From Patescibacteria group bacterium (lineage in GTDB: Bacteria > Patescibacteriota > Minisyncoccia > HO2-45-28), in contig JADFMT010000005.1 in assembly GCA_022563755.1 (NCBI GenBank), positions 1-37,788 of the forward strand: a stretch of 37,788 nucleotides of DNA, read 5' to 3'. Below the pieces are notes generated by a model that was given only the letters and a program-made list of their open reading frames with translations, made no database searches and was not told the DNA's origin. Every line of letters starts with the position of its first letter. The stretch's first letter is position 1. This document shows positions 21,723 to 24,834 of the stretch, one piece after another. The position numbers were made by a program, and so were the translations under genes.

Positions 21723-22907
21723 ATGTCGTTTCCAAGAGAGCATTTCCATTTTTTTGGAAATCGCGAGATGAACTCTCTCTATATGACGATCGGGCTTTTG
21801 TATTTTGCAGAGGGCCTGATGGGCATTTTTATTCCGATTTATTTTTGGAAGCTCGGATTTCCCCTTTGGAAAATCCTCTTTTTTTATTTTTTGATATCGT
21901 TTTCTTTTGTTCTTATCCTATTTGCGGCCCTGCCCGCTATTCGGAAACTTTCCGATAAAATGATGATGTTTTTAAGTATTCCGTTTTTGGTCGCATATTT
22001 TTTTGGGCTTACCTATTTAGCCGATATTCCTTTTCTTTTTTATATTCTTCCTATAATGGCTGCGGCAGGGTCTCTGCTTTTTAATGTGGGTTATCATATT
22101 GATTTTTCCGGCACTGCCGATGATGGCTACATCGGTCGGGAAGTAGGTATGCGTTACATGGTAGGCTCACTTGCACAATTTGCAGCTCCGCTTGCAGGAG
22201 GATTTTTAATTGCATTTTTAGGATTTGGAAACAATTTTTTTATTGGGTCTGCCATTTTGCTGCTTGCAGTTTTGCCGCTTTTTTTCTTCCCCAAGCGTAA
22301 TTTTTCTAGACGCCTAAATTACCGTTCTGTTTTGCGTTTTTTGAAGGATAAAGCATTGATGCCTTTTACGATTTCGGGATTTGGTTATGCGACCGAGACA
22401 ACCGTTGGCCAGGTTATTTGGCCTTTGTTTATTTTTTTGAGCGTGGGCAGTATTGAGAATTATGGCGCAGTGATATCGGGCGGTCTCTTGGTTGGTGCGG
22501 TTGTCACTTATCTCGTCGGATTTTTATCTGATCACGGACGGCGGCGAAAAACCCTGGCATGGAGCGCAAGTGCGCTAGCAGCTATCTGGGCCTTAAGACC
22601 TTTTTTCCTTAACCCATTTATAGTTTCTGCTAGTCAAGCAGGAGGAGCGGGAGTTAAGGGCGCGCTTATGGTTTCCTGGTCAAGTCAATACTATAAGATT
22701 GCGCGCGCAATTCCCAATCACGAAACATTTATCTTAAGCCGTGAAATGCTTTACCACCTTGCTCGTATGCTTTTTCTTCCTTTTCTCATGCTTGCCTCTT
22801 ATCTTTTCTCGTCGAGCCAATTTTTTACCTTCAGTTTTATTATCGCCGCCCTCCTTTCTCTTCTTTTTCTGTTTGCCAACCGTTTTCATCTTCAGCCAAA
22901 ATCATAA
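21723..22907 (+). CDS. MFS-like membrane transporter
   Basis: 394 aa hydrophobic; LVGFLSDHGRRRKTLAWSASAL loop; GREVGMRYMVGSLAQFAAPLAGGFLIAFLG. Confidence 0.82.
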   Translation: MSFPREHFHFFGNREMNSLYMTIGLLYFAEGLMGIFIPIYFWKLGFPLWKILFFYFLISFSFVLILFAALPAIRKLSDKMMMFLSIPFLVAYFFGLTYLADIPFLFYILPIMAAAGSLLFNVGYHIDFSGTADDGYIGREVGMRYMVGSLAQFAAPLAGGFLIAFLGFGNNFFIGSAILLLAVLPLFFFPKRNFSRRLNYRSVLRFLKDKALMPFTISGFGYATETTVGQVIWPLFIFLSVGSIENYGAVISGGLLVGAVVTYLVGFLSDHGRRRKTLAWSASALAAIWALRPFFLNPFIVSASQAGGAGVKGALMVSWSSQYYKIARAIPNHETFILSREMLYHLARMLFLPFLMLASYLFSSSQFFTFSFIIAALLSLLFLFANRFHLQPKS

Positions 22908-23803
22908 TGGATAAAACGGTTATTTTAGTAACTGGGTCGGATCGGCGAGAGATGGTTCGCGAAGCATTGACTAAACTTGGCGAGGCGTTTACGAACGCAG
23001 TCAAAGACGCAAAAAAGATTTTCATTCATCCTAATTTGGTTTCTCCCTACAATAAAGCTGCATCAACCGACGTGGAGGTTGTCCGTGGCATCGTGGACCA
23101 TATCTCGCTTATCCGGTCAGATGAGATCTTGATTGGCGACGCAAGCTATTATGATACGAAAAAAGCATTTGAAATTTTTAGCTATCCATCACTCAAACGC
23201 TCAGGAAACATTAAACTCGTTGATTTAAATGCGGAGGCAACCACTCAAAGCTACACCTATGCGTCCGATTTGAAAAAAAAGCCGATTGGATTTTCAAGAA
23301 TCGTTTCCGATTCCGATCTCAATATTGTCGTGGTGCCGGCCAAAATGCATAGCTATTATATTGTGACTCTCTCGATTAAGACGCATACCGTGGGTTCATG
23401 TGTGGTGAAAAAATCTCCCTTTGGAATTCACGCCCGGTGGCCGTGGTTTCATACGGGCTTTAAGTCCGCGCATCTGTCGGTTGCTGATATGTATGGCGTC
23501 CGTCCTGCCCAACTTGCCGTTATTGACGCAACGCGAGCCATGGAGGGCGAAGGGCCTACTTCTGGTGACGAAATGGATCTTGGCTGGCTGATCGCCTCAT
23601 TTAATCCTGTTGCGGCTGATGCGCTTGGGGCATACTTGATGGGACTTGATCCATCTGATATCGGATATCTTTATCATTTGGATAAAAAAGGTTTAGGTCC
23701 CATTGATCCTGAAGCAATGAGCATCATGGGAGCGGATCCGAAAATACTCAGGCGAGAACTTAAACGACCTTCTAGTTATCCAGAGATTCTTGCATGGAGA
23801 TGA
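22907..23803 (+). CDS. DUF362 domain-containing protein
   Basis: KKIFIHPNLVSPYNKAASTDVEVVRGIVDHI...ILIGDASYYDTKKAFE...VIDATRAMEGEGPTSG...NPVAADALGA. Confidence 0.9.
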   Translation: MDKTVILVTGSDRREMVREALTKLGEAFTNAVKDAKKIFIHPNLVSPYNKAASTDVEVVRGIVDHISLIRSDEILIGDASYYDTKKAFEIFSYPSLKRSGNIKLVDLNAEATTQSYTYASDLKKKPIGFSRIVSDSDLNIVVVPAKMHSYYIVTLSIKTHTVGSCVVKKSPFGIHARWPWFHTGFKSAHLSVADMYGVRPAQLAVIDATRAMEGEGPTSGDEMDLGWLIASFNPVAADALGAYLMGLDPSDIGYLYHLDKKGLGPIDPEAMSIMGADPKILRRELKRPSSYPEILAWR

Positions 23804-23827
23804 AGAAGAGATAGTATACTATAAGTA

Positions 23828-23962
23828 ATGAATCCCGTTAGAGATCAAAACCTTGTGTTTTATACGTATATCATTAAAAGTCAGAAGAGTAATAAATGGC
23901 GCATAGGTATTATCAATAATTTACGGAAATGCTCAAAGCATTTCCTATCTCTAACGGGATGA
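23828..23962 (+). CDS. 44-aa GIY-YIG-like micro-ORF inside a terminal-inverted-repeat element (possibly decayed)
   Basis: MNPVRDQNLVFYTYIIKSQKSNKWRIGIINNLRKCSKHFLSLTG*; resembles GIY-YIG N-terminus; ends ATGA-overlapping the downstream gene; ends are perfect 14-bp inverted repeats 23832-23845/23947-23960. Confidence 0.55.
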   Translation: MNPVRDQNLVFYTYIIKSQKSNKWRIGIINNLRKCSKHFLSLTG

Positions 23963-24834
23963 AAGTTTTTGATGTTGGCATCGGGTGGGCAAATCCGGTT
24001 GATCGCGTATTTATTGAAACGCTCAAACTTTTTTTAAAAAAAGAAAAACTCTCCTTTCATGAAATTACATTTGTAAATCTCACGCGCGCGTATGAGGAGA
24101 TAAGGAATGGCAAGATTCATTATAAAACGTTTATTGATCGCGCCTCCGAAGACCATCCCGCGTATTTGTTAATTGCTGAGAAGCTAAAAGAGCGGGGTAC
24201 TTGCGTAATCAACGATCCGCATCACGTTATCCGTTTTGCATCTAAATCGTTCTTGCATAGGCTTTTTGAGGCCGAACGTCTTCCTGTCCCCCGGACATTT
24301 GTTATCTCGCCTACTGCATCAAAAAAACTTTCAAAGAGTGTGGCAAAAACTCTGGGCATCCCGTTTGTTCTTAAGCCTTCTTATAGCGGTTTGCAGGATG
24401 TCACCTTGACCGCGCGTACGGCAGGGGACATCATGAATTTTCTCAAGGAAAACTTAACGGATGAGTGCTTGGCCCAAGAATATGTTGCGCCATCTCTTAT
24501 AAACGGTCGGACCGCATGGTTTCGGCCGATCTTTGTCTGCGGCCGCACCATTGTGCACTGGTGGGATCCGAAAAATCAGTTTTATCATTCATTTGGGAGG
24601 TCGCGAGAGGAACAAAAAATCGGAAGAGTATTGGATAACTTCATGCAAAAAATTTTTCAAATCACAGGTTTTAAGCTTTTCTCAAGCGAGGTAGCAATGG
24701 ACAAAAAAGGAAAATTTTTGATTATTGATTACGCAAACCATCCGATTGATTTAAATAGTCAAGAGATTACTCCGGACGGTCTCCCTTTAGAGACCATTCG
24801 TATGATTGCGTCAAGTATTGTAAAATCCATATAA
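23959..24834 (+). CDS. ATP-grasp superfamily protein (in-frame upstream ATG at 23929)
   Basis: HVIRFASKSFLHRLFEAERLPVPRTFVI...GIPFVLKPSYSGLQDVTL...CLAQEYV...GKFLIIDYANHPIDL. Confidence 0.75.
   Translation: MKVFDVGIGWANPVDRVFIETLKLFLKKEKLSFHEITFVNLTRAYEEIRNGKIHYKTFIDRASEDHPAYLLIAEKLKERGTCVINDPHHVIRFASKSFLHRLFEAERLPVPRTFVISPTASKKLSKSVAKTLGIPFVLKPSYSGLQDVTLTARTAGDIMNFLKENLTDECLAQEYVAPSLINGRTAWFRPIFVCGRTIVHWWDPKNQFYHSFGRSREEQKIGRVLDNFMQKIFQITGFKLFSSEVAMDKKGKFLIIDYANHPIDLNSQEITPDGLPLETIRMIASSIVKSI

Follow-up and report, generated by a model that had tools for sequence, protein, structure and literature searches.

Palindromic mobile elements with a small GIY-YIG nuclease at the start codons of Patescibacteria genes

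Insertions with GIY-YIG proteins have been described in the rRNA genes of CPR bacteria (PMC11270868); they belong to neither of the intron groups I and II, occupy poorly conserved sites and are regarded as not spreading by homing, and many further insertions lack an ORF and measure under 200 bp. A term search of that paper's text found no mention of inverted repeats or palindromes. The elements analyzed here occur in the same host group and are likewise insertions coding for a GIY-YIG protein, but they lie at the start codons of protein genes and carry a target duplication, whereas the earlier insertions concern rRNA genes only. It may be that the rRNA insertions belong to the same family.

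Other known systems share further traits with these elements. Free-standing homing endonucleases of the I-TevI or phage Seg kind also have a GIY-YIG catalytic domain and spread as selfish genes; they use long gene-specific sites and a DNA-binding domain, whereas the present elements combine inverted ends with a duplication at a short shared target, occur in many host genes and have no added DNA-binding domain. UPF0213 (1zg2) and SLX1, the nearest solved relatives, likewise consist of a single small GIY-YIG domain, and SLX1 works with SLX4, which is absent from the element. To our knowledge, neither protein is part of a mobile element with inverted ends. Dispersed palindromes of ~100-150 bp, some with an open frame throughout, are familiar as Rickettsia palindromic elements, REP/BIME and Correia sequences, but the sites of those sequences are intergenic or within coding frames, whereas here start codons are replaced and, unlike in MITE-like palindromes, autonomous nuclease-bearing versions of full length exist. 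Insertion sequences offer inverted ends, target preference and trans-mobilised short derivatives, with target duplication in the DDE kinds and subterminal hairpins in the HUH kinds (IS200/IS605); unlike them, the element has no DDE or HUH transposase, and its ~280 bp are well below the usual size of autonomous insertion sequences. We know of no bacterial mobile element recognised as targeting start codons, and the open-access papers that we searched held no description of the element family or of start-codon insertion. This family, spread over Patescibacteria and a few other phyla, appears to be previously unnoticed, and the segment from which our analysis set out is, with a probability of roughly 0.8, a non-autonomous, internally deleted copy of it.

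The window copy and its full-length relatives

The window is a stretch of 37,788 nucleotides from a Patescibacteria genome (GCA_022563755.1, contig JADFMT010000005.1). An earlier note on its sequence had pointed to perfect 14-bp inverted ends, a 9-bp hairpin before the right end, a TATACT box 7 nt before an ATG, and an ORF opened by that ATG whose stop overlaps the start of a downstream gene, and all of these are present (Table 1). The overlap joins the ORF stop TGA (23960-23962) to the host-gene ATG (23959-23961) as ATGA. The limits of the element needed correction, however: although the 14-bp arms pair perfectly, each takes in one base of a target duplication, of which the left copy, TGAA, forms with A23828 the captured start codon context ATGAA. 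The RNA fold of the segment reaches -41.4 kcal/mol, whereas shuffled versions average -22.1 (z -6.0), and none of 200 folded as well.

Table 1. Features of the window copy and its surroundings, in window positions.
Feature	Position	Strand	Basis or remark
Upstream neighbour, DUF362 protein	22907..23803	+	
TATACT, -10-like box	23815..23820	+	7 nt 5' of captured ATG; consensus match only; leaderless-type start
44-codon ORF MNPVRDQ...FLSLTG*	23828..23962	+	From captured start codon through the element
Target duplication TGAA, left copy	23829..23832	+	Direct sequence; left/right base correlation in the family; frr empty sites
Outer stem, left arm ATCCCGTTAGAGAT	23832..23845	+	
Mobile element T-CCCGTTAGAGAT...ATCTCTAACGGG-A	23833..23959	+	Ends common to full-length and short copies in other genomes
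Probable non-autonomous 125-bp core	23834-23958	+	Probable deletion derivative of a ~278-bp GIY-YIG element
Inner hairpin GGAAATGCT-CAA-AGCATTTCC	23925..23945	+	Arms 23925-23933 and 23937-23945; conserved covarying stem; core end 13 nt further on
Outer stem, right arm ATCTCTAACGGGAT	23947..23960	+	Codes for the last ORF residues, SLTG
Host gene, 291 aa, remote LysX/RimK-like ATP-grasp	23959..24834	+	Start codon rebuilt by the element
Target duplication TGAA, right copy	23960..23963	+	Direct sequence; family pattern

A DNA search with positions 23780-24000 of the window gave matches in 21 of 60 relatives, many of them split into left and right parts ~290-330 bp apart and others of the size of the window copy. 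The matched loci hold elements of ~280 bp in which the ends seen in the window copy flank a GIY-YIG ORF, together with copies of 114-126 bp that lack this ORF. The window copy and the full-length elements are 74-84% identical over the left 70-110 nt (E as low as 1e-15), and their right ends match as well; the window copy is 153 bp (51 codons) shorter than the 278-bp form, an in-frame loss. The proposed GIY-YIG likeness of the 44-aa ORF thus stands on this DNA homology and on protein alignment, because the ORF itself gave zero matches to Pfam, even at E up to 1, and is not recognisable as a GIY-YIG domain (PF01541). By alignment it is a truncated remnant of the GIY-YIG ORF, with the C-terminal half and most catalytic residues gone.

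The full-length element measures ~275-280 bp from CCCG to CGGG, has the ends YCCCGTTAGAGAY...RTCTCTAACGGGR with 12-14 bp inverted and an inner pair of inverted arms, and codes for one short ORF, a GIY-YIG nuclease of 85-95 aa that is UPF0213/SLX1-like. A pattern search found perfect-ended full-length copies in 26 of the 392 genomes of the class and palindromes of 97-126 bp with CCCGTTAGARA ends in 103 of 392, a count that takes in palindromes with unrelated interiors. Since a reversed-pattern control for paired ends returned zero among the 392 genomes, the paired ends of the window copy are not due to chance. A protein scan, at one genome per species, yielded 434 relatives, of which 80 were kept. 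Most belong to Patescibacteria, across many orders; the few remaining ones come from Omnitrophota, Planctomycetes, Desulfobacterota, a Woesearchaeote and further groups, where single cases may be MAG contamination. No relatives of the element were found in viral contigs (one scan), phages or plasmids, and there is thus no evidence of carriage by phages or plasmids.

The window's own genome contains short palindromes, and no full-length copy was found in it; its other GIY-YIG genes lack these element ends. Three of them lie on other contigs at tRNA 5' ends (L010:1393-1768, L013:1456-1759 and L008:1436-1822, at Tyr, Asn and Gln), and beyond each gene part of the tRNA 5' end is repeated (53 nt at 79% identity, an exact 16 nt and ~11 nt). 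They have no CCCGTTAG ends and resemble a parallel type of element by which a tRNA 5' end is rebuilt. Another short palindrome family in this genome is represented by two near-identical 77-bp palindromes, ACCCCGTTAGAAACTCC...GTTTCTAACRGGGT, ~1.75 kb apart (L001:806-880 and 2556-2633). Elsewhere, short CCCGTTAGAAA...TTTCTAACGGG palindromes surround exactly one tRNA gene (L056, L063, L072 and L079, ~1501-1610; Gly, Val, Ala and Thr), and in genomes of family f7 (G010, G188, G210, G218, G234, G327 and G337) short palindromes that combine these ends with other interiors are numerous (e.g., L058-L062), with inner palindromes of the CCACCGTNTTGAGGTGGTGG type or GGTTGCGAC hairpins and up to 21 copies per genome.

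Start codons as insertion targets

Among 86 unique oriented full-length copies, 55 have the start of a host ORF (at least 50 codons) exactly at the element end, and in 49 of those 55 an ATG stands at the left edge too. When ATG is found at both edges, a host ORF of 50 or more codons begins at the element in 49 of 52 full-length copies, compared with 31% of ATGR sites elsewhere (p 4e-22, the background being the other ATGR sites of the same loci). Every one of the 17 short copies that have the conserved hairpin likewise lies at a start codon, with the ATG duplicated in 14, ATGG starts included. The commonest form is ATGA[A/G]-T CCCG...CGGG ATGA[A/G] (spaces mark the junctions), and the base after ATGA is the same on the left and right in 41 of 43 cases (AA 36, GG 4, TT 1). 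The terminal bases pair as T/A in 57 copies and as C/G in 26 (Y..R pairing in 83/86), so that the element is best written Y-CCCG...CGGG-R; with a C/G pair, the rebuilt host start is GTG. The duplication is ~4 bp, TGRN of a start ATGRN, with the last base of the element completing ATG or GTG, and the exact stagger is not fixed, a few copies without the Y (e.g., L098) suiting a 5-bp duplication equally.

The insertions fall, in a single orientation, within the start codons of many unrelated genes, including pyrG, dnaJ, ruvX, frr, topA, greA, grpE, murG and fmt. Pfam searches on ten host proteins identified CTP synthase, DnaJ, RuvX, transaldolase, RRF, topoisomerase I, GreA, GrpE, a glycosyltransferase-28 of the MurG kind and a formyltransferase; the first domain begins within the first few residues in eight of the ten, and at residues 17 and 26 in RRF and GrpE. 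The left TGRN copy starts the frame of the element (M-N/S/D-PVRD...), and the right copy together with the terminal A/G makes the new host start. An MNPVRD leader is found in 31 of the 49 start-codon copies. The frame from the captured ATG to the rebuilt start is unbroken in only 27 of 49, so coupling by read-through is not universal. In 63 of 87 full-length copies, the nuclease stop is a TGA directly after GGR, within the rebuilt RTGA.

A preference for Shine-Dalgarno sequences at the targets was considered and rejected (6/79 versus 33/211 background genes). A -10-like box 5-10 nt 5' of the captured ATG is enriched (34/79 versus 44/211, p 3e-4, the background starts being crude first-ATG calls), a hint that leaderless starts may be common among the targets; starts of this kind would fall within the melted bubble of transcription.

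Mobility is documented at frr, where occupied and empty sites occur along with duplicated target bases. In G150 the element lies between TTTAAATTTAATCACATGAT and ATGATAGATTTCGG at the frr start, and same-family relatives have the empty site, reading TTTAAATTTAATTTCATGATTGATTTTTC (G203), TTTAAATTTAATATCATGATAGATTTTTC (G192), TTTAAATTTAATTTAATGATTGATTTTCC (G049), and others. A second, looser case pairs an occupied gene in G237 (TGCGGTATCATTTCGGGATGAA..) with an empty one in G394 (TGCGGTATTCTTACTGAATGAGG). For the window copy, the host-gene ortholog was absent from the 20 relatives searched, and it is for this reason without an empty-site comparison of its own. Short copies keep the ends and left flank of the full-length copies with the interior deleted, as MITEs do, and several are found in one genome: G024 has three, 90-96% identical, at three unrelated start codons with unrelated flanks. 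In G039, L039 and L040 share a 33-bp palindrome inside the nuclease ORF, yet lie at the start codons of different genes, and intact element copies are also present. The spread of nuclease-less copies over unrelated start codons implies, as far as sequence comparison goes, that they can be mobilised in trans. The shared insertion in L039 and L040 is a perfect palindrome, GCCACGTTAGAAAATAATATTTTCTAACGTGGT, at core position 170, and L040 resembles a recombinant of two element types.

The remaining 31 of the 86 full-length copies lie outside start codons (e.g., L123, L127, L132, L138, L139, L163 and L190). Many of them read TTYAC CCCG...CGGG GTRAA, with complementary flanks and no duplication, and about five have duplications (TTGAC, TTTAC, GAAAC, TTAAC and CAGA); copies outside start codons are also located between genes, and several at gene 3' ends. 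No rRNA gene was found next to them in 19 loci, only two tRNAs. Site class clusters on the protein tree (14 changes versus 23.9 when shuffled, 0/500 as low), which suggests that lineages may differ in their target habits.

The nuclease and the inner stem

The proteins of the full-length elements match PF01541 at 56-67 bits (cut-off 22.6), and the catalytic positions (Y..Y, YTG, LRxR, H and E) are at least 95% conserved across the 80 element proteins. By sequence, the closest solved structures are UPF0213 1zg2 (E 1.5e-10) and SLX1 (E 0.005), and the closest curated model outside Pfam is a group I intron endonuclease subfamily, as a weak match. The GIY-YIG ORF is the sole ORF of the full-length elements, in which no DDE, HUH, serine or tyrosine transposase was found. 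No Rfam intron reached the gathering threshold in a scan of 19 class-2 loci, and a 280-bp element has little room for an intron RNA beside the ORF.

In orthologous or near pairs, dS/dN values were 0.325/0.034, 0.441/0.046 and 0.280/0.014, pointing to purifying selection on the nuclease with a dN/dS of about 0.05-0.1 in these three pairs. Element sequences have diverged less than the host genes in the ruvX insertions (dS 0.017 versus 0.233) and in L111/L112 (0.325 versus 1.41), which fits repeated horizontal arrival, base-pairing constraint partly lowering the dS of the element.

A second inverted pair lies inside the coding sequence, formed by GGAAACGCTTT (coding for LRKRF) and AAAGCGTTTCC (LKRF), the latter arm stopping 13 nt short of the right end of the element. 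At fixed codon positions, this inner stem is 94% Watson-Crick in 83 full-length copies, compared with at most 41% when slid by one base, and its last pair varies on both sides (T-A 39, C-G 25, G-C 12). Pairing was 0.955 as observed versus 0.850 +/- 0.006 with re-dealt partners, a comparison inflated by relatedness, which affects the slid control less. These statistics come from unselected full-length copies; short hairpins were left out because they had been selected for perfect pairing. In the short copies, both arms are closed into a hairpin whose sequence varies and whose distance from the end is constant, and the GGAAATGCT-CAA-AGCATTTCC hairpin of the window copy is this inner stem.

Mechanism, alternatives and implications

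We propose that the nuclease, whether encoded by the element itself or provided from a different copy, would recognise the folded double palindrome, as a cruciform or hairpin, and cut at its base. The target would also be cut by it, at A^TGRN and with a stagger of 4 nt, and repair would leave the duplication; we know of no 4-nt staggers among known GIY-YIG enzymes such as I-TevI. Ribosomes from the captured start codon might read through or terminate in the element, and host expression would be kept via re-initiation at the overlapping (ATGA) or unmasked start codon; alternatively, the leader ribosome may open the outer stem and so keep the host gene expressed. Short copies, that of the window included, retain only the outer ends together with the left flank and the inner hairpin; they lack a working nuclease and would be moved in trans.

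Another enzyme, such as a host Y1/HUH REP-type transposase, might move the palindromes with the GIY-YIG protein as passenger or stabilising cargo, an idea suggested by nuclease-free palindromes with similar CCCGTTAGAAA ends and other interiors, some of them around a tRNA gene, and by the window's genome, with its short palindromes and no full-length copy. We consider it unlikely, since nearly all full-length copies contain no gene other than GIY-YIG, whose frame reaches across both ends, whose catalytic residues are conserved and which is under purifying selection, and since the covarying inner stem is formed by the coding sequence itself; moreover, single-strand transposition by HUH enzymes is not expected to give target duplications. 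Equally, one may picture a classical homing endonuclease gene, spreading mainly through repair of double-strand breaks at the orthologous start codon of strains free of the element, and reaching different genes by occasional ectopic jumps. The greater likeness of element than host gene in orthologous insertions (ruvX, L111/L112) and the weak match to the group I intron endonuclease subfamily speak for this reading. It is nonetheless doubtful: the dozens of unrelated host genes have nothing but ATGRN in common, not one long cognate site for each endonuclease family, more than 40 different host genes with a short shared target and a duplication suit transposition better, and short copies have multiplied at unrelated genes of a single genome.

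The start-codon pattern itself could be one of survivorship, insertion being lax or random, with insertions inside genes lost and those rebuilding a start kept. An element at a start codon is tolerated, with its ORF translated, and copies at gene 3' ends and between genes do exist, but intergenic insertions should be tolerated too, and yet 17 of 17 nuclease-less hairpin copies are at start codons, in one orientation and one register; we therefore give this explanation little weight. As for an ordinary conserved regulatory leader that merely resembles a mobile palindrome, the stable structure directly 5' of a start codon would suit it, but the same sequence stands at unrelated genes in many genomes, and these dispersed copies and the empty sites refute it, leaving it a negligible probability. 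The earlier note would have given up its mobile palindrome had there been no GIY-YIG similarity and only an ordinary conserved leader, which is not what was found. Its view of a miniature or decaying GIY-YIG mobile palindrome is borne out by full-length copies with the same ends and an intact ORF in many Patescibacteria, and by empty sites for one insertion; searches for both, which it had proposed, were successful, the empty sites being those at frr. Its suggestion that the palindrome had been adopted as the leader of a host gene fared less well. The element does lie at the head of a gene, for which an ATP-grasp identity receives remote LysX/RimK-like similarity that stays below curated cut-offs, but there is no sign of host benefit, and adoption is not supported because the position follows from the target choice of the element, most copies being at start codons.

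The reading we prefer therefore remains that of an internally deleted copy of a mobile element that inserts at start codons, duplicates its target and rebuilds the host start, whose family keeps a conserved nuclease and double stem and includes nuclease-less derivatives, the nuclease probably making the cuts and driving movement. Whether the family stands for a new class of transposable element, with GIY-YIG as sole mobility protein, acting on a structure of its own coding sequence and having start codons as specific target, is a question on which we are evenly divided. The chances are similarly balanced that such a class would be among the smallest autonomous mobile elements, taking the translation start of the host and returning a rebuilt one. 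Because we infer the role of the nuclease, we class the family as palindromic mobile elements and not as a new class.

Gene starts beside these elements are probably often mis-annotated. At the window copy, an in-frame ATG at 23929, within the hairpin, would lengthen the host protein by MLKAFPISNG, and the ORF listing places the host-gene start there, upstream of the rebuilt ATG. Taken together, the empty sites, the duplications, the many essential host genes and a built-in route to host expression make this a clear case of start-codon targeting. It raises the questions of whether a ~90-aa GIY-YIG protein can serve as a transposase, whether start codons are recognised through the bubble of leaderless promoters or through structure, and whether translation is rewired by these elements in Patescibacteria, whose mobile DNA is poorly known. 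The element family also accounts for possibly mis-set gene starts and for the commonness of small GIY-YIG genes in these genomes.
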